Positions 9,612 through 44,547 of a stretch of DNA of 64,000 nt are shown here, piece after piece. Origin of the DNA: an uncultured Gammaproteobacteria bacterium (lineage in GTDB: Bacteria > Pseudomonadota > Gammaproteobacteria > GCA-002705445 > GCA-002716945). Position 1 is the stretch's first letter, and every line of letters starts with the position of its first letter. Made by a program: the position numbers and the translations under genes. The notes under the pieces are model-generated. The model saw nothing but the letters and a program-made list of their open reading frames with translations. It had not been told where the DNA came from and did not search any database. The DNA lies in assembly GCA_902559355.1 (NCBI GenBank), contig CACEHM010000005.1:1-64000 (forward strand), read 5' to 3'.

Positions 9612-10373
9612 ATGAGGAATATTATGTCTTATGTATTCTCATTATTATTCGTAGTTTCCATGCCATCGATTGCGTTAGCTGGAGATCTACAGGCGAATGA
9701 TTTTGTGGGGGTTACATTCTGGATAATTTCAATTTCCATGGTTGCAGCTACAGTGTTCTTTTATGCAGAAAGATCACGAGTTTCAGCTAAATGGCAGACA
9801 TCATTATCTGTAATATCATTGGTTACACTTATTGCTGCAGTACATTATTTCTATATGAGAGATGTATGGGTAAGCACAGGAGAATCACCAACTGTATTTA
9901 GATATATTGATTGGATATTAACTGTCCCACTACAAATGATTGAATTCTACTTAATACTTGCAGCTGTAACTACAGTTAGCGTAGGTGTATTCAACAGACT
10001 GTTAGTAGGAACACTAGTCATGCTTATAGGTGGATATTTAGGTGAAGCGGGGGTTATCAACGCTATGCTTGGATTCATCATTGGGATGGCGGGCTGGATA
10101 TACATTCTATATGAAATATTTATGGGTGAAGCATCACAAAAAAGTATTTCATGCGGAAGCGTAGGTGCACAAATGGCATTCAGCGCTTGTCGTATGGTTG
10201 TATTAGTTGGTTGGGCGATCTATCCTCTTGGATACCTATTCGGATATCTAATGGGCGCAGTAGACGCAGCCAGCCTAAACTTAGTATACAACTTAGCTGA
10301 TTTTGTAAACAAAATCGCATTTGGTGTATTTATCTGGGCAGCTGCGGTAGCAGATTCTCAAGAAACAGCTTAA
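9612..10373 (+). CDS. Proteorhodopsin, blue-absorbing type by the position-105 residue
   Basis: Signal peptide, RYIDWILTVPLQMIEFYLIL (D97, Q105, E108 by alignment to GPR), ADFVNKIAFGVFIW retinal-lysine helix. Confidence 0.98.
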   Translation: MRNIMSYVFSLLFVVSMPSIALAGDLQANDFVGVTFWIISISMVAATVFFYAERSRVSAKWQTSLSVISLVTLIAAVHYFYMRDVWVSTGESPTVFRYIDWILTVPLQMIEFYLILAAVTTVSVGVFNRLLVGTLVMLIGGYLGEAGVINAMLGFIIGMAGWIYILYEIFMGEASQKSISCGSVGAQMAFSACRMVVLVGWAIYPLGYLFGYLMGAVDAASLNLVYNLADFVNKIAFGVFIWAAAVADSQETA

Positions 10374-10392
10374 AAATAAAACTACAAATATG

Positions 10393-10418
10393 TACAGGGA
10401 GCGCTTGCGCTCCCTGTA
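10393..10418 (+). promoter_or_regulatory. Perfect 12-bp intercistronic hairpin between proteorhodopsin and crtI
   Basis: TACAGGGAGCGC-TT-GCGCTCCCTGTA; no T-tract; crtI ATG at 10429. Confidence 0.9.
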
Positions 10419-10428
10419 TAATATCTAA

Positions 10429-11898
10429 ATGAAAAAAGCAATTGTTATAGGCTCAGGCTTTGGCGGACTTGCTATTGCCTGTAGACTGAGGGCAATAGAG
10501 TACGAAGTCACTGTACTAGAGAAGCAAACAAATCTAGGAGGCAGAGCTAGAACACTTAGCCATAATGGTTTTAATTATGATGCTGGCCCTACTGTAATAA
10601 CTGCACCCTATCTCATTAATGAACTATATGACCTGCTAGGTGAAAATTCTAGGGACTACTTTAATCTCCTGAAGGTCGAACCCTTCTATAGATTTTTATT
10701 TCATGATGACACTTACTTTGATTATGGATCATCATTAAAAAGAATGCTAAATGAAATTGGAACTAAGTATTCAAAAGAGGATGCACATGGCTATATTAAG
10801 CTTCTTAAGCATTCAAAAAGAATATTTAATACTGCATACCTAAAATTATCTGACTATCCATTTGAATCCCTCAATAGCATGACTCCATATATACCAGAAC
10901 TACTCAAAATACAATTTTATAAATCAGTACACTCATCTGTAAAAAAGTTTCTAGATAATCCTAATCTTATTAAAGCTTTAAGTATGCATCCACTTTTAGT
11001 TGGAGGTAACCCTTATACAACAACATCAATATACCTTCTAATTCAATATCTTGAGTGGAAGTGGGGAGTATACTATGCGGAGGGCGGGACCCGCTCGATT
11101 GTGAATGGCTTTGAGAAATTGTTTAGAAAAAAAGATATTAATTTTGAAACTAATTGTGAAGTGTTAAATATAGAGCAGCATAATAATAATATCAAAAAAG
11201 TTATTACTAATAAGAGAACTTTTCAAGCAGATTTAGTTGTCAGTAATGCCGATCCATCCTATTTTTATCAGTCAATCTTGAAAAGAGCTCCAAAAAAACT
11301 ATTTAACAAACCGTTTATGTTGAAGCATTCTATGGGGCTATTTGTTTTATATTTCTCAACTAAAAAACAATATGATGATGTAAAGCACCATACAATAATA
11401 TTTAACAAGAGACATAAGGATTTGCTAGATGACATCTTTGATAGAAAAATTTATATAACTGATCCAAGTTTATATCTTCATAGGCCAGCTGCTACTGATA
11501 AAAAAAATATACAAAACGATTCTGACTCCTTTTATGTCTTAGCTCCGGTTGCTAATAACGAGAGCGCAATTAATTGGAATGAAAAAGGCGATGAGTTCTC
11601 TGATTACATAATAAGTATATTGTCTGATAAAATACTCCCTAATTTAAAAGAAAATATTATTGATAAATTCTTTGTTACACCTGATTACTTTGAGTTTAAC
11701 TTAAATTCATTTAAAGGTAGTGGTTTTGGTATACAGCCAATATTTAGACAATCTGCATATTTTAGATACTCTAATAAATCTAATGAACTTGATAATCTTT
11801 ATTTTGTTGGGGCCGGTAGTCATCCGGGAGCTGGCGTACCTGGGGTAATCTCATCTGCAAAAGTTACAGAAAAGCTTATACTTAAATATCATGGCTGA
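10429..11898 (+). CDS. crtI: Phytoene desaturase
   Basis: GSGFGGLAIACRLRAIEYEVTVLEKQTNLGGRARTL FAD motif; C-terminal GAGSHPGAGVPGVISSAK. Confidence 0.97.
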   Translation: MKKAIVIGSGFGGLAIACRLRAIEYEVTVLEKQTNLGGRARTLSHNGFNYDAGPTVITAPYLINELYDLLGENSRDYFNLLKVEPFYRFLFHDDTYFDYGSSLKRMLNEIGTKYSKEDAHGYIKLLKHSKRIFNTAYLKLSDYPFESLNSMTPYIPELLKIQFYKSVHSSVKKFLDNPNLIKALSMHPLLVGGNPYTTTSIYLLIQYLEWKWGVYYAEGGTRSIVNGFEKLFRKKDINFETNCEVLNIEQHNNNIKKVITNKRTFQADLVVSNADPSYFYQSILKRAPKKLFNKPFMLKHSMGLFVLYFSTKKQYDDVKHHTIIFNKRHKDLLDDIFDRKIYITDPSLYLHRPAATDKKNIQNDSDSFYVLAPVANNESAINWNEKGDEFSDYIISILSDKILPNLKENIIDKFFVTPDYFEFNLNSFKGSGFGIQPIFRQSAYFRYSNKSNELDNLYFVGAGSHPGAGVPGVISSAKVTEKLILKYHG

Positions 11899-12715
11899 GT
11901 CTAGTAATCATATTCTTAAACAAAATAGCAAGACATTCCATATTGCATCTTTATTTCTTCCAAAAAATATTAAAAAGAAAGTCTTATCTGTATATGCATT
12001 CTGCAGACTGTATGATGATAATGTAGATCACAAGCGTTCTGTCAATACATCAGAATTAGAAGAAAAGATCCTGAGCTTTGGGATTGATGAGAAGGTTATA
12101 GCCCAACTTAAAGAAGGCATTGATTCAGACATGTATTCAAATAGCATTTCCTCTATGGAGGACCTATTAAATTACTGCTATAAAGTAGCAGGGTGTGTGG
12201 GCATTATGATGTGTGATGTGCTTAACATAACTGACAGACGAGCTAAGTATCATGCTATAGATTTAGGCATTGCAATGCAGATTACAAATATATGTAGAGA
12301 TATTAAAGAAGATTTTTCTATGAGCAGAATCTATCTTCCCAAAGACAGAATTACTAAAAGTGAAATGATAAGTAGAAAGAACAATAAACTTTTTAAAACT
12401 ACTTGTGAACTAATTGCACTATCAAATAGATATTATGAAAGTGCACTAGAGGGAATAAAATATATACCATTAAACACAAGGTTTTCTATTTTATTCGCAC
12501 TGATGATGTATCAACAAATTGGTTTCAAAATTAAAAATAATGAAGAAAGTTTCATAATTAAAAAACCAAATACTACTAAGATAGATAAATTTTTAGTATT
12601 CATAAAAACTGTATTTATCTTTATATATAGATACCTATTATGTTCACCTAAAGCCCATAATCAGTCTCTACATTCATCATTACAAGGTTTACCAAACACT
12701 CATGAAAGATTATGA
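11891..12715 (+). CDS. crtB: Phytoene synthase
   Basis: AFCRLYDDNVDHK and QITNICRDIKEDFSMSRIYLP motifs. Confidence 0.96.
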   Translation: MAESSNHILKQNSKTFHIASLFLPKNIKKKVLSVYAFCRLYDDNVDHKRSVNTSELEEKILSFGIDEKVIAQLKEGIDSDMYSNSISSMEDLLNYCYKVAGCVGIMMCDVLNITDRRAKYHAIDLGIAMQITNICRDIKEDFSMSRIYLPKDRITKSEMISRKNNKLFKTTCELIALSNRYYESALEGIKYIPLNTRFSILFALMMYQQIGFKIKNNEESFIIKKPNTTKIDKFLVFIKTVFIFIYRYLLCSPKAHNQSLHSSLQGLPNTHERL

Positions 12716-13823
12716 CATAGTAATAGTGGGCGCAGGTTGCTCAGGACTTAGTCTTGCTTATAGACTAATTAATAGTTCTTATAGTGTATGTCTGATTGAA
12801 AATAAGCCTGTTACAAATAGAATAAGAAAAACATGGTCATATTGGGATGCTTATGAGCACCCATTTAAACATTTAAACAAATACACTAATAAAAAATTAT
12901 CTATTCATAATAACAAATCAACTTCTATACTGGATTGTTCTGAACAGAACTACTGTAGTATTGATTCTTATGACTTCGATAAATATGTTCTCAATAATAT
13001 TGATGAATGCGCTAATGTGGAAATAATGTTTGATACAGAAATAAAAGAAATTATTACAACACATGAGCGTTATGATATTAATCTCAATAAAGGATCAATA
13101 AATGCTAAATATATTTTTGACAGTAGACCAAATAGTCAGGCAATCGAAATGAAGCAAATATTTAAAGGATTATTTATAAGATTCGATAAAGAAATAAAAA
13201 AATTTAATACTCAACTCATGGATTTTACTGAGAAAAACGAATTTCACTTTTTTTATTGCTTACCTATGGGGGATGATACGTACTTGTTTGAATCAACTTA
13301 TTACACAGCACTCAGAAAAGATAAAAATGAGATGACAGACGAAGTTCATGAGTATATTAAAAAAAGATATGGAGATGAATACTCAATTATGAGAGAAGAA
13401 TATGGTGAAATTCCATTAACTACAAATATTAAAATAAATAAAAAAAATTCAAATTATTTAAATATCGGAATCCCCTCCGGCTCTACGAGAGCATCAACAG
13501 GGTATACATTTCTAAATATCCAAAAACAAGCAGATGAGTATATAAAAAAATTAGATGGAAATAATTATATTGAATTTCCGAGTACATTTAAAAGCAGAGT
13601 TTTAAGAAAAATGGACAATGTGCTTTTGCAAATAATTAAAGATCACCCTAATGCCAGTAAAAATATTCTCTATAGAATGTTCGAATCTAATGACAGCAAA
13701 AGAGTCATTAGATTTTTATCGGATAATCCAACTCTACTCGACATACTTATAATCGTTTGGAATATGCCTAAATTAATATTTATAAAATATGCTATTAAAT
13801 CATTTACAACAAGAAGTATATAA
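12702..13823 (+). CDS. crtY: Lycopene beta-cyclase
   Basis: DYDIVIVGAGCSGLSLAYRL; GSTRASTGYTF; within crt cluster. Confidence 0.95.
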   Translation: MKDYDIVIVGAGCSGLSLAYRLINSSYSVCLIENKPVTNRIRKTWSYWDAYEHPFKHLNKYTNKKLSIHNNKSTSILDCSEQNYCSIDSYDFDKYVLNNIDECANVEIMFDTEIKEIITTHERYDINLNKGSINAKYIFDSRPNSQAIEMKQIFKGLFIRFDKEIKKFNTQLMDFTEKNEFHFFYCLPMGDDTYLFESTYYTALRKDKNEMTDEVHEYIKKRYGDEYSIMREEYGEIPLTTNIKINKKNSNYLNIGIPSGSTRASTGYTFLNIQKQADEYIKKLDGNNYIEFPSTFKSRVLRKMDNVLLQIIKDHPNASKNILYRMFESNDSKRVIRFLSDNPTLLDILIIVWNMPKLIFIKYAIKSFTTRSI

Positions 13824-14691
13824 AAAATATCAACTGATATTATTAATGAACCTAAGCATAATTAGTTTGTTGCTTATGATTATTGAACCAACAATTCTTA
13901 ATACAAATACACAACTAATACTTCTGCTCACAACTGTTACCATAATAGGCATACCTCATGGTTATTTTGATTTCTTAATTGCAAAAAAACTGTTTAATCA
14001 CTATAACAATTGGCTTGCTAAATTTATCTCTACATATACATCATTATCGTTAGTTTACCTTCTAGCTTGGCTTATATCTCCTGTTGCTGCGCTGACTATA
14101 TTCTTGATTATGTCTGTTTATCATTTTGGTATAGAAGAGACAGAGGATATAAAAAACAATAATATTTTATTGATATTGTATCTAGGAAGCGTTCCTATTA
14201 TTGTTCCAATCTTATTTCATACTAACGAGGTGTATTATTTTTTTGATATATTACTAAATCAAACGATTACGTATCAAAATAACTTTGACTTAATAAAATA
14301 TGTATATTGTTTTGGACTTATCGGTCTATTATTTCTGAAGGTTAAAAAATTACTCCCACTATATGGGCTATTACTTATCAACTTCATATTTTTACCACCA
14401 TTAATCTCCTTCATACTTTATTTTTGTTTTCACCACTCTATTAGGCACTACTTACACGCAATGGGAGATAGTAATATTTTTTCAAGCCAGATTAATGTTA
14501 TGAAGTTTGCAACTATCTTTCTAGTGCTCACAGTTGTTTTTACTGCGGCAGTTGTAGGATACATGACAGAGTTTTCAAATTTGACGTTTGAAAAAATAAT
14601 CATTAAATATATTTTTATCACACTAGCTTGCCTAACTCTGCCTCACCTACTATTGAATATCATTTATGAAAATAAGTTTAGTTATAAGTAA
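13789..14691 (+). CDS. blh: Beta-carotene 15,15'-dioxygenase, Brp/Blh family (start may be 13846)
   Basis: Polytopic; GIPHGYFDFLIAKKL, SVYHFGIEE, FCFHHSIRHYLHA motifs. Confidence 0.95.
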   Translation: MLLNHLQQEVYKKYQLILLMNLSIISLLLMIIEPTILNTNTQLILLLTTVTIIGIPHGYFDFLIAKKLFNHYNNWLAKFISTYTSLSLVYLLAWLISPVAALTIFLIMSVYHFGIEETEDIKNNNILLILYLGSVPIIVPILFHTNEVYYFFDILLNQTITYQNNFDLIKYVYCFGLIGLLFLKVKKLLPLYGLLLINFIFLPPLISFILYFCFHHSIRHYLHAMGDSNIFSSQINVMKFATIFLVLTVVFTAAVVGYMTEFSNLTFEKIIIKYIFITLACLTLPHLLLNIIYENKFSYK

Positions 14692-19275: not shown

Positions 19276-20484
19276 TTATTTAGCTTTTGAAATTTTGTTT
19301 TCAATATCCTCTATAACAGCAATAATCTGATTATCTTTATTATATGGAACTGGCAGTAAACTGTTAGGTTTATCAATTTCCTCAAACTCAATTTTGACAT
19401 CAGGCTCAATGCCATTGCCATGAATATGCCTATCATTAGGTGTGTAGTATCTTGCTGTTGTAAGTTTAAGTGCTGAGCCATCAATCATCTCTTGTATAGA
19501 CTGAACAGATGCTTTACCGAACGATTTTTCTCCATAGATTTTAGCTCTTTGATGATCTTGTAATGCACCTGCAACGATTTCTGATGCAGATGCTGAACCA
19601 CCGTTGATAAGGACATAAAGAGGTAGTCCTTCGAGTATGTCTTCACTATTTGCAAAATATTCTAGATCTGAATTGTTAGTTCTGCCCTTGGTATAGACAA
19701 TCTTACCTGACTCTAAAAATAAGTCTGATATACCAACAGCAGCACCTAAAACACCACCGGGATTATTTCTTAAATCAAGAATAAGCGCAGTCATCATTTT
19801 GCCTGCATCCTTTCTAAGTTTATATATGGCATCTCTAACATTCGTTGTAGAGTTTGATTGGAAACTTGATAATCTCAGGTAACCAATTTCACCGTTGAAA
19901 ATCTGAGTTTTTATTCCTTTAGATACAATTATTTGTCTAGTTAACTCAAAGTCTATAGGTTGCTTTGCCTCTTCACGTAAAACTTTAACTTTTACTTTTG
20001 TACCAGGCTCACCTCGCATTAGTTTTACTGCATCATTAAGCGATTTATCTTTTAACGAAACATCTTGAACTTCAATAACTAAATCACCGGCTTTTAGTCC
20101 AGCTTTTTGTGCTGGCGTATCATCAATGGGAGTTATAATTTTTACAAAACCATCTTCCATTGTAATCTCAATTCCTATACCACCGAATCTACCTGTGGTA
20201 CCAACTTTGAGCTCGGAGAAATCATCTTTTGATAAGTAGTCTGAGTATGGATCAAGCTTCGACACCATGCCTTCAATCGCATAGTTGAATAATGTATTAT
20301 CATCTATGTCATCTACATATTGATCTTTAATTTTTTTATAAACATCAACAAATTGCTGTATTTTTTCTGATGGAACTTCTGAATCATTGGCATACAACGG
20401 CAAGCTCGTTAGACCTAGCGTTACAGAAAATGCCACATATATAAGGGTTTTATTAAACATTTCGACCACGAGTAATAATAACAC
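19276..20484 (-). CDS. ctpA: C-terminal processing peptidase (S41) with PDZ
   Basis: RFGGIGIEITMEDG PDZ; LDLRNNPGG; NGGSASASEIVAGALQDHQRAKIYGEKSFGKASVQ. Confidence 0.93.
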   Translation of the reverse strand: MLLLLVVEMFNKTLIYVAFSVTLGLTSLPLYANDSEVPSEKIQQFVDVYKKIKDQYVDDIDDNTLFNYAIEGMVSKLDPYSDYLSKDDFSELKVGTTGRFGGIGIEITMEDGFVKIITPIDDTPAQKAGLKAGDLVIEVQDVSLKDKSLNDAVKLMRGEPGTKVKVKVLREEAKQPIDFELTRQIIVSKGIKTQIFNGEIGYLRLSSFQSNSTTNVRDAIYKLRKDAGKMMTALILDLRNNPGGVLGAAVGISDLFLESGKIVYTKGRTNNSDLEYFANSEDILEGLPLYVLINGGSASASEIVAGALQDHQRAKIYGEKSFGKASVQSIQEMIDGSALKLTTARYYTPNDRHIHGNGIEPDVKIEFEEIDKPNSLLPVPYNKDNQIIAVIEDIENKISKAK

Positions 20485-37574: not shown

Positions 37575-38399
37575 ATGACTACTACTATCATTACTGGTGC
37601 CACATCAGGTATAGGTTTAGAGACTGCAAAAGGATTAGCCAAAGAAAAACATAAGTTAATTTTAGTCTCTCGCAATCTAAGTAAGCTCGAATCTACTAAG
37701 AAACTTCTTGATAGTGAGAACAATATAGACTGTGACATATATGAATATGATTTGTCTCTTATTAGAGATAATATTAACTTTTATGAGCTAATATTAAATA
37801 GATACAGTGATATTGACTTTCTGATTAATAATGTAGGTGCAATATTTATGAAAAGGGAGGAAACCATTGAAGGTTTAGAAAAAACATTTAGCTTAAATCA
37901 TATGAGCTATTTTGTTTTATCTAAACTATTTTCTCAACAAGGTAGCCCATTAAAAATCATTAATGTTAGTTCTGAGGCACATAGAAACATAAGTCTTGAT
38001 TTTCATGATCTTCAAAACAAGAAAAATTATAATGGCTGGTACTCATATAAGAGAAGTAAACTTGCTAATATTTATTTAACATATGAACTTCATGAAAGAC
38101 TTCTAAAATCCAAGTCAACCGTTAATTGTTTGCACCCCGGTGTTGTTAACACCAATTTTGCTAACGATAATGCATTGCCATTTAAGATAGTGGCGAGTTT
38201 GATTAAATACTTCGGAATATCACCTAAAGAAGGCTCTGAAACAATCATGTATCTTGTTAAAAACAATGATATAAGAAATGTATCAGGACTATACTTTAAG
38301 AAATGTATGCCTGTCAAATCATCACAGATCTCTCATAATCAAGAATATGGTTTAAAATTATGGGATTATAGCGAAGAAATTTTGTCAAAGTATTTATGA
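37575..38399 (+). CDS. Short-chain dehydrogenase/reductase
   Basis: ITGATSGIGLETAKGLA; LINNVGAIF; YKRSKLAN; LHPGVVNT. Confidence 0.92.
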   Translation: MTTTIITGATSGIGLETAKGLAKEKHKLILVSRNLSKLESTKKLLDSENNIDCDIYEYDLSLIRDNINFYELILNRYSDIDFLINNVGAIFMKREETIEGLEKTFSLNHMSYFVLSKLFSQQGSPLKIINVSSEAHRNISLDFHDLQNKKNYNGWYSYKRSKLANIYLTYELHERLLKSKSTVNCLHPGVVNTNFANDNALPFKIVASLIKYFGISPKEGSETIMYLVKNNDIRNVSGLYFKKCMPVKSSQISHNQEYGLKLWDYSEEILSKYL

Positions 38400-38824
38400 A
38401 ATATTATTTATTATTAATTACTTTTATTTTATCTGCATGTGGTTCTAGAGTTTCAGGCCAATATAATTTTCCAATGAACATATATACCTATGATTCAAAT
38501 AAAAAAGAATTGTCTGCGGATTGTAAGTTGTACTCAGCTGAAACGAGGTTAAGTTTTGTAACACCACAAAAAATTAATTATCAAGCGAATTGTGGTCCAA
38601 TTAATATACTATGCAAGAGTGGGACTAAAGTTGGAGAGTTTGGATTAATGCCTAAACCCGAAAGCGAGATAGAGGTCAATACTATTTTAAGTACAGGTGC
38701 AGGTATTATATTTGATAGATTAGTTGACTCAACAACACCTTTTGGAATGTTTGTCAGATACACAAATGCTTTTGATAATTCAACATGTTTGATACCTAAA
38801 GAAATTAATATAATTCTAGATTAA
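38396..38824 (+). CDS. Hypothetical lipoprotein
   Basis: Signal peptide with lipobox ILSACG. Confidence 0.6.
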   Translation: MKYYLLLITFILSACGSRVSGQYNFPMNIYTYDSNKKELSADCKLYSAETRLSFVTPQKINYQANCGPINILCKSGTKVGEFGLMPKPESEIEVNTILSTGAGIIFDRLVDSTTPFGMFVRYTNAFDNSTCLIPKEINIILD

Positions 38825-38861
38825 TACTTGTCTAACTATTTATCAGGTGTTAGCTTGAGAT

Positions 38862-39065
38862 ATGGCGATTATAATTGGTTCAATATTTTTTCTTGCAGTG
38901 GGATATTTTGCTTATACATTTGGACAGTGTGTTGCGAAATTTTCACGTTTAGATAAATTAATCAATAAAAAAGTATTTGGAGTAGCTTTCTTAGCTATCT
39001 ATATTAATTATGTCTATACAAATCAGGCAATGATCATAGATGCATTTATGGCACCACTCAGATAA
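38862..39065 (+). CDS. Hypothetical two-TM small protein
   Basis: 67-aa ORF with two hydrophobic segments. Confidence 0.5.
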   Translation: MAIIIGSIFFLAVGYFAYTFGQCVAKFSRLDKLINKKVFGVAFLAIYINYVYTNQAMIIDAFMAPLR

Positions 39066-39465
39066 TTTTTAGAACTTTGACTAGCCAATAAATCACAAAC
39101 GAGAGCATAGCTCCGATTACAACTATATTTATTAAAGAAGTAATAAACTTATATTCTTGAACTTCTGAATTGTTATCTTTGTTTAAAAATGCCCCATTGA
39201 CCCATGTGCCGTTATATATCCTTCCATCAGCATAAGTCCATTGCCCATCACCAACAGGTTTTCCTTTATCGAAGTTGCCGGTATATATTTTCCCGTTAGG
39301 AAATGTATTGATACCAAATCCATGAGGCTTGTCATTTTTCCAGTCACCCTCATAAGATCTATTATTTCTCGTTGTCAATATTCCTTTCCCATGTTTAAGG
39401 CCATTTTTGATTTCACCTTTATAAATATCACCATTTGGCAGTGTTTTCGTTACAGATTTGCTCAT
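39058..39465 (-). CDS. MORN-repeat protein with C-terminal TM anchor
   Basis: Repeats GDIYKGEIKNGLKHGKG / RSYEGDWKNDKPHGFG / GKIYTGNFDKGKPVGDG; C-terminal hydrophobic helix. Confidence 0.88.
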   Translation of the reverse strand: MSKSVTKTLPNGDIYKGEIKNGLKHGKGILTTRNNRSYEGDWKNDKPHGFGINTFPNGKIYTGNFDKGKPVGDGQWTYADGRIYNGTWVNGAFLNKDNNSEVQEYKFITSLINIVVIGAMLSFVIYWLVKVLKII

Positions 39466-39533
39466 ATCACCTCATCTCTCATAATTATATCTTATACCTC
39501 AATTATTTGTTCTTCAGTAAATAGATTTGACAA

Positions 39534-39549
39534 TGGTATCCGGATACCA
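39534..39549. promoter_or_regulatory. 16-bp perfect palindrome, operator-like
   Basis: TGGTATCCGGATACCA, about 13 bp before the 39562 ORF. Confidence 0.6.
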
Positions 39550-39561
39550 CAATATAGAGTC

Positions 39562-39741
39562 ATGAGTATGAAATATTATAAAAGCCTTGAGAATAGTGAC
39601 TATTACCAAAAGAATAAGGCAAATATTCTTGGAAAGAGGAGAGAATATTATCTTCAAAATAAGGAGTTAATATTAGAGAAGAAAAAGAAAAGATATTTAC
39701 TAGTAAAAATAAATAAAGAGGTTTCGCGTGAGCAAAATTGA
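39562..39741 (+). CDS. Hypothetical basic 59-aa protein, YYQKNK-type repeat
   Basis: MSMKYYKSLENSDYYQKNKANILGKRREYYLQNKELILEKKKKRYLL...; start inferred inside the longer 39241 ORF. Confidence 0.5.
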   Translation: MSMKYYKSLENSDYYQKNKANILGKRREYYLQNKELILEKKKKRYLLVKINKEVSREQN

Positions 39742-40384
39742 AAAATCCTATTGGGATATTGGTCTAGAAAATTTCATGAAGTTTATTGACGAACATGGGC
39801 ATCCATTCGTGCCTGTTAGGCAAGAAGGCAAGACAAGTGTTGATGATGGAGATGGATTTAAAGCCTACACTTATGGCACTGGAAGAGATGGTGAGCCATT
39901 TTTACTTGGTAGATGGGTTGCCTATGCAAGAAGGGTCATGAAAAACCATCTAAAAAAGCCAACACCAATATCAGTCAAAAGAAAAACTGATCTTGAAACA
40001 TGCGGTTTTATGTACGAAACAGATATTAGACAGTTATTAATAGGAGATATAAAAGAAAATGCTTATAAGATTGATGCGTTTATAAAACAAGTTTCTTTAA
40101 TAATTTCAAAAAAACTTAAAGGAAAGCATAATGAGTTCTCTCTAGAAAGATATTTTTGGAGGGAAATGAGCAAAGAAGTTCATGATTTTGATGATGAGAT
40201 AGAACCAGCACATGAATACAAATTCCCAGATTCCAAAAGAGATGAATTATCCCAAAAGCTTAAGGATTATCAGATAGCAATAGTTGGATTAGAAAATGCT
40301 CAAATACAAATAAAAAAAATTAAAAGCGATATAAGATCTATTCTATCAAGTCCTGAAAGATACTATGTTGAGGACCCATCATAA
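39728..40384 (+). CDS. Standalone helicase-associated (HA)-like domain protein
   Basis: YWDIGLENFMKFIDEHGHPFVPV...LLGRWVAYARRVMKNHL...KRKTDLETCGFMYE matches the W..L..F..EHGH..VP...LG.WV..R...L....LE..GF pattern. Confidence 0.6.
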   Translation: MSKIEKSYWDIGLENFMKFIDEHGHPFVPVRQEGKTSVDDGDGFKAYTYGTGRDGEPFLLGRWVAYARRVMKNHLKKPTPISVKRKTDLETCGFMYETDIRQLLIGDIKENAYKIDAFIKQVSLIISKKLKGKHNEFSLERYFWREMSKEVHDFDDEIEPAHEYKFPDSKRDELSQKLKDYQIAIVGLENAQIQIKKIKSDIRSILSSPERYYVEDPS

Positions 40385-40396
40385 CATTAGGAGAAT

Positions 40397-40666
40397 ATGA
40401 TAATGACGATAGACCATCAAAATATAGACATCATTAAGTTCATTGATTTTATTCAAATGATGCATGGTGCAGCTACTTATTATCAAGATATTGGGAAAAA
40501 ACCTCATGAATTTATTAAAGAGTCAAACATATCAGATATTGAGTCTTATGTTTTACAATCTCATCACCTGAGATCATTGGATGATATTACTTGGGGCGAA
40601 GCCATGAACATCGTTTTGACGAAAAAATTTCCCACCTTCTTTTCAGATTATGGTGACATGCAATGA
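40397..40666 (+). CDS. Hypothetical protein, family shared with 40811-41062
   Basis: 89 aa; C-terminal DDITWGEAMNIVLTKKFP. Confidence 0.6.
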   Translation: MIMTIDHQNIDIIKFIDFIQMMHGAATYYQDIGKKPHEFIKESNISDIESYVLQSHHLRSLDDITWGEAMNIVLTKKFPTFFSDYGDMQ

Positions 40667-40681
40667 ATTATATAAATAAAA

Positions 40682-40725
40682 TGCTAGGGTCAAAAAATAT
40701 CGCTATTCTCTCTATGATCCTAGCA
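40682..40725 (+). ncRNA. Predicted hairpin 1 of a structured intergenic RNA
   Basis: TGCTAGGGTCA (40682-40692) pairs with TGATCCTAGCA (40715-40725) with one G-T wobble. Confidence 0.4.
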
Positions 40726-40736
40726 GAACAGTTTGT

Positions 40737-40800
40737 ACCTCCGTTAGTTACGGCCTATGAGTTTTTGTTGTTTCCTCATAGGCTAAACGAGGTTTTTTTT
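40737..40800 (+). terminator. Long imperfect hairpin followed by T8
   Basis: GCCTATGAG (40753-40761)/CTCATAGGC (40775-40783) 9-bp stem, outer ACCTC/GAGGT arms, then TTTTTTTT. Confidence 0.55.
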
Positions 40801-40810
40801 GGGAAATATC

Positions 40811-41062
40811 ATGACAGATAGACATTATGTTTATGGATGCTCTCAACTTCTTAAGAACCTTCGTGATTTGATATCTGTAGCCGCAAGGTTTGAGGAAGAG
40901 GGTAAATCAATTGAAGACTGGCTTAGACATGAGGGTTATAAAAATATACATGCATCAAGAAGAAAGCTTACATGGGGCGCGGCTATTAACTTAGTTATCA
41001 TCCGTCAGACAAAACAGCTTTTAAGAATTAGAGAAGATAGCATGGCCGATTGGCCTTTTTAA
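40811..41062 (+). CDS. Hypothetical protein, family shared with 40397-40666
   Basis: C-terminal RKLTWGAAINLVIIRQTKQ; ATG at 40811 preferred over the upstream TTG at 40799. Confidence 0.6.
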   Translation: MTDRHYVYGCSQLLKNLRDLISVAARFEEEGKSIEDWLRHEGYKNIHASRRKLTWGAAINLVIIRQTKQLLRIREDSMADWPF

Positions 41063-41096
41063 ACGAATTAAAAATAATCTATTAGAGGTAAAACTG

Positions 41097-42275
41097 ATGA
41101 GAAAAAATATACATGATGACAGATGCTACCATTGCGGACAGACTCTTACTCCTGAAGCTAGAGAGCATTTAGATAAGATTGGAGGATTATTAGCCAGAAC
41201 ACCAGAACAAGAAGAAGCTGATAGAAAAGCTGAAGCAAAGAGAATAGAGGATTTAGCTGATGAAAGATATCAGGCTAAACTCAAAGAGAATGAAAAAACA
41301 CCAGAACAAGAAGAAGCTGAGAAAAAGGAAATTAAGCAGACAATAGAAGCTGCTGAAAGTTCCGGATATAAGAGTGGTGTACGTTCTGTACAAGAGCAAC
41401 TCGATGTAAAGATTAAAGAAGAGGCAGATATGAAGAAACAAATAAATGAACTTAAAGCTTCAGTAGCGGCACTATCCAATACTAAAGGTGTATCAGGAGA
41501 ACTTATTGGTAATCTTCAGGATCAAAAGTTATTTGATATTCTTGTTGGTTTATACCCTGATGATGAGTTTAAGGATTTTGGTATTGGTGAACCCGGAGCA
41601 GACATATTACATACTATTTTTCATAATGGTAAATCATGTGGAAGTATTACATGGGAAAGCAAAAGAATGGAGCCTCATAAAAGCTTTAAAGAGACTGAGT
41701 GGATAAGCAAATTGATGAAAGATAAGCTGGAAAACAAATCCAGCATAGCAGTAATTGTGGCTAATAAGTACCCACACAAAAAAGATAAACTGTCAGGCGT
41801 AGAACTAGATTATCCACAATCTTGTTTAATAGAAGATTTTGGTTACTGGTACTGCTCTACAATTCCTCACAACATACAAATGCTATCTTTTGCATTGAGA
41901 CAGCAAATTATAGCACAAGCTTCAAATCTAATTTATAAAGATCAATTAAGCGTTAGTGAAGAAGTCATGAACTTTGTTTGTGGCGAAGAATCAAGAGCAA
42001 TATCGGATAAAGTTACCCTTCATAATAGCAAAACAGACGTGCACAGACAAAAGGTATTGAAACTCCAACAGGAAGCTATAAAAAATGCAGTTGACACTAT
42101 TGGAACGTTGAATAAATACGATGCCGAATGTCAAGATGTACTTGATTTACAGAGTAGGTTTATCAATTCATTATTTAAGATTACGAATCAAACAGATAAT
42201 TTAATTGAGAGTTCTCCACATAAAGAGCCCTTGGTAATAGATAACCCTACTAAGAAATCTAGAAGCGTTAAATAA
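41097..42275 (+). CDS. DUF2130-like protein with N-terminal CxxC zinc-finger-like motif
   Basis: CYHCGQ; coiled coil; GNLQDQKLFDILVGLYPDDEFKDFGIGEPGADILHTI...GSITWESKR...EWISKLMKDKLENKSSIAVIVANKYP. Confidence 0.7.
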   Translation: MRKNIHDDRCYHCGQTLTPEAREHLDKIGGLLARTPEQEEADRKAEAKRIEDLADERYQAKLKENEKTPEQEEAEKKEIKQTIEAAESSGYKSGVRSVQEQLDVKIKEEADMKKQINELKASVAALSNTKGVSGELIGNLQDQKLFDILVGLYPDDEFKDFGIGEPGADILHTIFHNGKSCGSITWESKRMEPHKSFKETEWISKLMKDKLENKSSIAVIVANKYPHKKDKLSGVELDYPQSCLIEDFGYWYCSTIPHNIQMLSFALRQQIIAQASNLIYKDQLSVSEEVMNFVCGEESRAISDKVTLHNSKTDVHRQKVLKLQQEAIKNAVDTIGTLNKYDAECQDVLDLQSRFINSLFKITNQTDNLIESSPHKEPLVIDNPTKKSRSVK

Positions 42276-42290
42276 TCAGTATCACAATTA

Positions 42291-42443
42291 ATGCTTTATG
42301 TATGTGATGAGTTGCCTGATATGCTTCAGGCGTTCATCTTTATATCATTAGTTATATTTTTTTGGATGCTATCTTATAGAAGTTTTAGTTTTACAGGTAT
42401 AACAAAAAAACAATCTCGTAGTCTATATTTACTCGGTTTTTGA
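42291..42443 (+). CDS. Candidate 50-aa small ORF with one TM helix
   Basis: MLYVCDELPDMLQAFIFISLVIFFWMLSYRSFSFTGITKKQSRSLYLLGF*; below ORF-track cutoff. Confidence 0.3.
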   Translation: MLYVCDELPDMLQAFIFISLVIFFWMLSYRSFSFTGITKKQSRSLYLLGF

Positions 42444-42468
42444 TAAATGTAATCAACAAAATGTAAAA

Positions 42469-44547
42469 TTATACTTTCTTGATTTGAGCTAGGACTGTAT
42501 AAAAGATTGGACCATCACCCATATCTGTTAAGTCTTGAGAGTTAAGTGCATTGGCATTGAGACCGTTTTTGACCAGTGAACCCCTATATTGTTTTTGTGT
42601 AGAGGCCACACCCTCAAGCATTGAATCTTTAATGATTGCATGTGCAAAGGTTTCACCCACATCATTAAAAACTTTACATAGATCGCCATCTTTAATTTTT
42701 CTTTTTTTTGCATCAATAGAGGATATTTCAATAGTAGGTCGTGATGCCATATTTCTTAATCTTTCAACTGGTACAAATGAATTTCCAATAAATTGATGTG
42801 TTGCAGGGCTTAATATTTGAATAGGGTATTTTTTTTTAATTTCTGACTTTTTGAATTCTTCAGTGTAAGAAGGATAAGCACCTAGCCCAATCTTTTTTGT
42901 ATCTTCAGAATAAATTTGTATTTTTTTATCTTTAGTGGGCCACCCCGTTTTTAAATAATTGCGCCTTGGATTATTTACATCCCCTTTGACCCAACCATTT
43001 TTTTTGAGTTTTTCATATGTCACACCTTTGAACAAAGGATTATGCTTAGGATCAATCATATTTTTTATCATACTTTCATCAGATTCTCTGAAGCACTTAT
43101 CTTTGTATCCCATGTGTTTTGCCAAATCTCTAAATAGATCCTGATTTGATTTACTCTCACCTAATGGCTTTATAGCTTGTTGAGTAAGGCTAAAATAATA
43201 ATGACCATATGGTGCATGAAGATCTGTGTGTTCAAGTTGAGTATCGGCAGGCAATACCACATCAGCATACATGCAGCTATCAGTCCAAAAAGTATCATGA
43301 ACAACTGTAAATAAATCTTTTCTTTTTAACCCATCCCTAACGTTACTGCTATCAGGTGTACAATTTGCAATATCAGAATTCCAAACAAACAAATGTTTAA
43401 TTGGAGGGTCAAGATTCTTATCATTTAGTGCTTTTCCAATTTGGACCATGTTAATACTTCTAGGTTTTTTGTTTTCTAAAAGGTCAGGCCTTTGCAATTT
43501 TTGTAAATCAACATTCCACATCTCTTCAATAGAACCCACAAAACATCCCGACTCTTTATGTTTCCATGCACCTGTTATTGCCGGCAATATCATAATTGTT
43601 CTTGTCATCATGCCACCATTTCTGTGTCTATTGAGCCCGTAGTTTGGCCTTATATAACTTCTTTTTGCTTTTGCGTATTCGTATGCTAGTTTTTTGATAT
43701 CAGTCTGTTTGAGACCTGTTATCTTTGCTACTTTACTAAGTGTATATTTTGGTAGCTCATTTTTAATAAAGTCTTCAGAACCCGAAGTATGTTTTTTTAA
43801 AAAAGCTTTATCGTGCAGATTATTTTTTACAATTTCATTCATCATGCCAAGTGCCAATGCAGAATCTGTTCCAGGCTTAGGCTGTAGATGCCAGTGGCAC
43901 ATTACACTTGTTCTGGTCTCTCTTGGATCTATACAAACTATTTTTGCTCCATTTTTTTTTGCTTCTTCTAAAAAAGGAACCATATGCACGTGTGTTGAAG
44001 CCACATTCGTACCCCATAAAATTATGTAATCATTTTTAGGTACTTCATCTATTGCAGGACCACATGCTGCGCCGTATGTATAAATACCAGCTGTTGATGC
44101 TGCTGCAATGCAAATTGTTCTTCCAAGTCTCGCAGCACCAACTTTATTCCAAAATCTTTCAGACATACCCCAATATCCAAGCATACCGAGTGTCCCAGAA
44201 TATGAATAAGGCTGAATAGAATCACCCCCGTACTCTTTTAGATTTTTATTAATATTTTGACTAATAAGTTTTAATACATAGTCCCATGAAACTTTTTTAA
44301 ATTTACCTTTTTTACCTTTTGGTCCAACTCGAACATGAGGGTACAAAATTCTATTTTTGTTATAGACAAGATCTAAGTAGTGATTAACTTTATTACAAAG
44401 AAAACCTTTTGTAATTGGGTGCTCTTCGTTACCTCTTAATTTAACTGCCTTACCAGTTGATTTATCGACAGTGACTACCAATGAACAAGTATCAGGACAG
44501 TCATGAGGACAGGTAACATTTATATCTTTGAATTTAGGCTGACGCAT
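42469..44547 (-). CDS. Molybdopterin-dependent oxidoreductase
   Basis: N-terminal CPHDCPDTC...GFLCNK; PYSYSGTLGMLG; IDPRETRTS; YADVVLPADTQLEHTD. Confidence 0.9.
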   Translation of the reverse strand: MRQPKFKDINVTCPHDCPDTCSLVVTVDKSTGKAVKLRGNEEHPITKGFLCNKVNHYLDLVYNKNRILYPHVRVGPKGKKGKFKKVSWDYVLKLISQNINKNLKEYGGDSIQPYSYSGTLGMLGYWGMSERFWNKVGAARLGRTICIAAASTAGIYTYGAACGPAIDEVPKNDYIILWGTNVASTHVHMVPFLEEAKKNGAKIVCIDPRETRTSVMCHWHLQPKPGTDSALALGMMNEIVKNNLHDKAFLKKHTSGSEDFIKNELPKYTLSKVAKITGLKQTDIKKLAYEYAKAKRSYIRPNYGLNRHRNGGMMTRTIMILPAITGAWKHKESGCFVGSIEEMWNVDLQKLQRPDLLENKKPRSINMVQIGKALNDKNLDPPIKHLFVWNSDIANCTPDSSNVRDGLKRKDLFTVVHDTFWTDSCMYADVVLPADTQLEHTDLHAPYGHYYFSLTQQAIKPLGESKSNQDLFRDLAKHMGYKDKCFRESDESMIKNMIDPKHNPLFKGVTYEKLKKNGWVKGDVNNPRRNYLKTGWPTKDKKIQIYSEDTKKIGLGAYPSYTEEFKKSEIKKKYPIQILSPATHQFIGNSFVPVERLRNMASRPTIEISSIDAKKRKIKDGDLCKVFNDVGETFAHAIIKDSMLEGVASTQKQYRGSLVKNGLNANALNSQDLTDMGDGPIFYTVLAQIKKV

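Follow-up and report, generated by a model that had tools for sequence, protein, structure and literature searches.

Closest described systems

Among the open papers searched, only three name the DUF2130 family (PF09903), and their titles and abstracts make no functional test apparent. Canonical proteobacterial members combine an N-terminal CxxC, a coiled coil, and a G[AG]D...(E/D)xK core, and canonical genes also present in other genomes of the class give no sign of being defence genes. A zinc-hook-like group (L038, L041, L042, and L044) has an H-D-D-x-C-x-x-C type start, a HNGKxCGxI core stretch, a D-x-K form of the motif, and a ParB-like partner. The combination of a zinc-hook-like DUF2130 gene with a ParB-like gene recurs in alphaproteobacteria (L038, L041, L042, L043, and L044), located on a plasmid or beside apparent restriction-modification or integrase genes; the genes following the L041 pair are read, from their translations, as type I restriction-modification genes. 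On a Chryseobacterium plasmid, another relative lies between a DEAD/DEAH helicase gene and annotated methyltransferase and specificity-subunit genes, and a DUF2130-like gene annotated as hypothetical occurs in Helicobacter heilmannii prophages (L048, 5001–5606). Toxin-antitoxin and defence operons, ToxIN for example, position a terminator before the toxin.

The DUF2130 protein studied here shares with the canonical members the CxxC, the coiled coil, and the core; it departs from them in its identity (at most 36%, over short stretches only), in an Asn (N139) replacing the GE-motif glutamate common to the other 14 DUF2130 proteins, and in extra residues around 228–252. With the zinc-hook-like group it shares the type of start and the core stretch, whereas it has E-x-K and no ParB-like partner, and the tree grouping is unreliable. 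Like ToxIN-type operons, the locus contains a terminator-like hairpin between a regulator-like upstream part and a nuclease-like gene; unlike them, it has no tandem RNA repeats (39000–43000) and no toxin family match. The N-terminal 88 residues of a second protein resemble one repeat of the helicase-associated HA domain (PF03457), whereas the block has no helicase and the C-terminal 120 residues of that protein match nothing. The cassette is not categorically new.

A block inserted between two flanking genes

The window, meaning the whole 64,000-nucleotide stretch analysed, is contig C5 of a 1.04-Mb draft genome in 18 contigs, and the host is probably streamlined and marine. The window also encodes a phytoene-desaturase-like oxidoreductase, a Brp/Blh-type carotene dioxygenase, and a TonB receptor; at 9612–14691 a bacteriorhodopsin-like gene is followed by carotenoid/retinal synthesis genes that include the Brp/Blh-type dioxygenase. 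Together with the small genome, these genes would suit a streamlined marine gammaproteobacterium of SAR86 type. At 19467–19773 (plus strand), Rickettsia sRNA47 is matched in Rfam at 72 bits, antisense inside a minus-strand S41 (Ctp-type) peptidase gene; the match probably reflects conserved coding sequence and does not mark an sRNA.

Between a MORN-repeat gene and a molybdopterin-oxidoreductase gene, the window holds 2.9 kb of extra DNA with the following features.

39466 to 42380, no strand: inserted block (islet); site empty in six relatives, right edge approximate
39527 to 39555, plus strand: candidate promoter TTGACA-17-CAATAT, read from the sequence, with a palindrome inside the spacer
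39562 to 39741, plus strand: basic 59-aa ORF, perhaps leaderless; weak coding score
39728 to 40384, plus strand: 218-aa HA-like protein; GTG start preceded by an AGAGG site; sub-threshold PF03457 match, coding score like the neighbours
40397 to 40666, plus strand: small protein s89 with TWGxAxNxV; AGGAG site 5' of it
40663 to 40821, plus strand: 52-aa ORF that covers both hairpins, begins on the stop of s89 (ATGA), and ends just inside s83
40682 to 40725, plus strand: hairpin 1, 11-bp stem; fold z -4.69
40737 to 40801, plus strand: terminator-like hairpin followed by U8; fold z -2.18
40811 to 41062, plus strand: small protein s83, also with TWGxAxNxV; by pairwise BLASTP a probable paralogue of s89
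41097 to 42275, plus strand: DUF2130 protein, 392 aa, with N-terminal CxxC, coiled coil, and nuclease-like core; PF09903 E 6.4e-17
42313 to 42332, plus strand: weak terminator-like hairpin 3' of the DUF2130 gene; the scan gave 3 in the region versus 1.6 expected

The oxidoreductase, used as bait, gave matches in 9/9 genomes of the genus sample, and its orthologue itself was found in 6/8 relatives. In all six same-genus relatives with both flanks, the MORN and oxidoreductase genes adjoin, about 0.12 kb apart, compared with 3.0 kb in the window; the gene order in these six is SDR, lipoprotein, 67-aa ORF, MORN gene, oxidoreductase, and gltD-like gene. The DUF2130 and HA-like genes were not found elsewhere among the 24 family genomes searched. 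The initial annotation had proposed an accessory unit, present or absent as a whole, and the entire block is indeed missing from the six relatives holding both flanks: the cassette is real and was acquired as a unit. In appearance it is a small gene cassette gained by horizontal transfer, perhaps directed against viruses.

The left edge of the block is the MORN start codon, and the first residues of the window MORN protein differ from those of the relatives. On the right, 42381–42409 resembles the ancestral intergenic promoter region at 22 of 29 positions (compared with L006, L007, and L010), a resemblance of moderate weight alone, since shuffled sequences score as well in 3–38 of 1000 cases, according to the relative compared. 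This stretch is located 88 nt from the oxidoreductase (fdh) stop in the window and 87 nt from it in L006; the shuffle test and the near-equal distance combined make a right edge near 42380 likely. The 50-aa ORF at 42291–42443, put forward as a small TM gene, runs across this likely edge, which counts against its being a gene. We rejected it as a likely gene: it probably straddles the right junction, and its 3' part resembles ancestral intergenic DNA.

Tandem or flanking repeats were not found in 39000–43000, and no integrase, transposase, or other recombinase was present among the 10 scanned ORFs of 38396–42440, so that the suggestion of a mobile element remnant gained nothing. Since no target-site duplication or terminal repeat was seen at the flanks and no recombinase in the scanned ORFs, replacement by recombination would be a more natural account of the islet than transposition.

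In six relatives (L006, L007, L010, and others) a conserved palindromic stretch, TTATTATACATGTATAAT, directly precedes the MORN gene and lies upstream of the oxidoreductase 3' end by about 100 bp. The window keeps only a degenerate trace of it, displaced 2.9 kb from the MORN gene by the insertion. In L010 (G006:C1) the oxidoreductase gene is broken by in-frame stops or a frameshift, through assembly error or decay.

The DUF2130 protein

The assignment to DUF2130, made earlier as a likeness, is firm at the level of sequence: the match to PF09903 scores 62.1 bits against a cut-off of 26.7 and joins residues 108–275 to profile positions 4–166 of 255. Profile positions 167–255 are unmatched in the window protein, and five relatives (L037, L039, L040, L025, and L034) match as far as 248–253. 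Residues D169 and E187-x-K189 are kept: D169 and K189 do not vary across nine aligned proteins, and residue 187 alternates between Glu and Asp among subfamilies. This D...(E/D)xK arrangement corresponds to the pattern of a PD-(D/E)XK active site.

The N-terminus, HDDRCYHCGQTLTPEAREHL, resembles the Rad50 zinc hook, with a PF04423 score of 14.7 bits, below the cut-off of 24.3; the L041 protein reaches 20.1 bits against the same cut-off. No branch of the tree is longer than that of the window protein, at 3.0 changes per column, and the position of the protein is uncertain. Long branches were also the reason to reject, as unproven, a placement near the zinc-hook proteins. The AlphaFold2 model had a pLDDT of 43.8 and a pTM of 0.19, and the protein had no sequence match among the solved structures of the PDB. 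The broad DUF2130 alignment offered no conserved stretch usable for scanning. Neither DUF2130 nor the pair alignment A3 gave a match in viral contigs; searched against genome contigs, a DUF2130 pair alignment identified four alphaproteobacterial loci, whose neighbours include no HA-like or TWG genes.

The upstream genes and their candidate promoter

The ORFs of 39562–42275 form a same-strand run, as first described, with coding-like composition in frame and in a compact arrangement with overlaps and short gaps. For the HA-like, s83, and DUF2130 genes, the in-frame codon scores are like those of the neighbours and the other five frames are negative. The 59-aa ORF that opens the run is present as reported, and its weak coding score lends little support to its being a gene; it weakly matches phrog_17714 (E 0.0033) and an ORF from a Vibrio phage (E 0.01).

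The palindromic site noted ahead of the run, TGGTATCCGGATACCA (39534–39549, 16 bp), is exact and occurs once in the genome, according to a scan with its 14-bp core allowing up to two mismatches. It may serve as an operator. The TTGACA/CAATAT pair does not reach the threshold set for the promoter scan, so the promoter and operator at 39527–39555 stay proposals, and agreement with a promoter consensus does not by itself show function. The combined promoter-operator pattern had no match in viral contigs.

The protein described earlier as containing an HA-like domain is encoded by a coding-like ORF, and its domain match (26.5 bits) lies under the Pfam cut-off of 28.4 for PF03457. Beyond this, it resembles only proteins annotated as helicase-associated on Streptomyces plasmids (E 0.3–0.7). 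No match was obtained in genome contigs, phages, or viral contigs, and in the class and phylum samples (321–399 genomes) the protein was found in its own genome only.

The two small proteins reported to share TWGxAxNxV, s89 and s83, align over 75 residues (BLASTP pair E 6e-5), an alignment equalled by 1 of 2000 shuffles, and they are probably paralogues. The structure model of s89 is all-helical and of fair confidence (pLDDT 76), with no fold match in the PDB or BFVD. Neither protein has relatives among 321 class and 399 phylum genomes, phages, or viral contigs; against plasmids, HA-like and s83 gave nothing beyond the weak helicase-HA matches. A match at E 0.005 within a 960-aa frame of G491, obtained in the HA-like and s83/s89 searches, was judged to be chance because 399 genomes were searched, and weak matches to Tenuivirus, SIRT1, and the like were also rejected as chance.

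A predicted RNA structure between the small genes

A structured RNA or terminator had been proposed within the run, in agreement with the folding of 40664–40812, between s89 and s83, which is better than that of 200/200 shuffles (z -2.96), hairpin 1 being the stronger of the two elements. The long loop of the hairpin at 40737–40801 kept it out of the output of a simple terminator scan. The 52-aa ORF was not among the features of the initial annotation; an open frame of this length following the ATGA arose in 1.6% of simulations. The promoter scan identified no promoter-like site between the terminator and s83, and a 9/12 site at 41050, ahead of the DUF2130 gene. Nothing in the block matched Rfam at gathering score, and matches below it were regarded as noise.

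The two hairpins and the ORF spanning them suggest attenuation. If the terminator works, s83 and perhaps the DUF2130 gene need readthrough. Attenuation would be the most specific and most testable idea to come from the locus.

Possible functions and origins

We lean, tentatively, towards an accessory nuclease module under operator control, of a type that serves defence or a mobile element. The block would be a horizontally acquired accessory operon in which a DNA-binding HA-like protein and the small helical s89 are expressed from a promoter containing a palindromic operator, and a double hairpin ending in a terminator would limit transcription into s83 and the DUF2130 gene. A potentially harmful nuclease-like protein would then be made only on readthrough, for example when ribosomes translating the 52-aa ORF keep the hairpins open. 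The effector could be the DUF2130 protein, a coiled-coil protein whose N-terminus would bind metal and whose PD-(D/E)XK-like core would cut DNA, possibly invading DNA, while HA-like, s89, and s83 may be specificity, regulator, or antidote partners. We favour this module because of the empty site, the DUF2130 family with its D...(E/D)xK residues, the compact arrangement, the unique palindrome, and the RNA fold, and also because some of the more closely similar DUF2130 proteins are near restriction-modification or ParB-like genes, on plasmids and contigs of other bacteria, and some are in Helicobacter prophages. Against it count the lack of a PADLOC family, the relatives' neighbours without HA-like or TWG genes, the Asn at the GE position, the canonical DUF2130 genes without a sign of defence, and the lack of a match to a solved structure. 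Of the functions first suggested, action on nucleic acids is upheld for the DUF2130 protein, by family and motif only, and is weak for HA-like; defence drew nothing from PADLOC, in which no system protein matched and weak matches (at most 17 bits) covered coiled-coil or short stretches. A more specific version appears rather improbable. In it, a compact and previously undescribed system against invaders would pair a diverged DUF2130 nuclease, its N-terminus binding metal, with HA-like as a DNA-binding protein and with two paralogous small helical proteins, and a translated 52-aa leader ORF crossing the terminator would gate expression of the nuclease.

It is quite possible, if somewhat doubtful, that a piece of some larger prophage, satellite, or plasmid arrived here by recombination, with genes that serve the DNA handling of the parent element or are decaying. 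Such an origin agrees with the DUF2130 relatives found in Helicobacter prophages, next to ParB-like genes, and on plasmids, with the weak phage-family matches of the 59-aa ORF, and with the lack of relatives for all other genes; however, structural genes, integrase, transposase, and repeats are missing, HA-like, s83, and s89 are unmatched in phages and viral contigs (HA-like and s83 also in plasmids, apart from the weak helicase-HA matches), and the main genes show no sign of decay in their coding scores. A cargo of ORFans, neutral or niche-specific and without a common function, its palindrome and hairpins being a mere promoter and terminator between two unrelated units, would explain why only one gene has a firm family, and the terminator would close an HA-s89 unit ahead of the site at 41050; yet the probable paralogues s89 and s83 flank the terminator with an ORF overlapping both, and no promoter-like site separates the terminator from s83, which leaves this account unlikely. 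The flanks are core genes, as expected of a conserved housekeeping locus or of lineage-wide genes lost in relatives, but the site is empty in six relatives and the DUF2130 and HA-like genes are absent from the 24 family genomes, and we regard such a history as very improbable.

Significance

Very small genomes still acquire ORFan cassettes without a visible mobility gene. DUF2130 is widespread, and this compact acquired operon, comprising about five genes and with a naturally empty site in relatives, provides a small clonable unit for testing the role and partners of this family.
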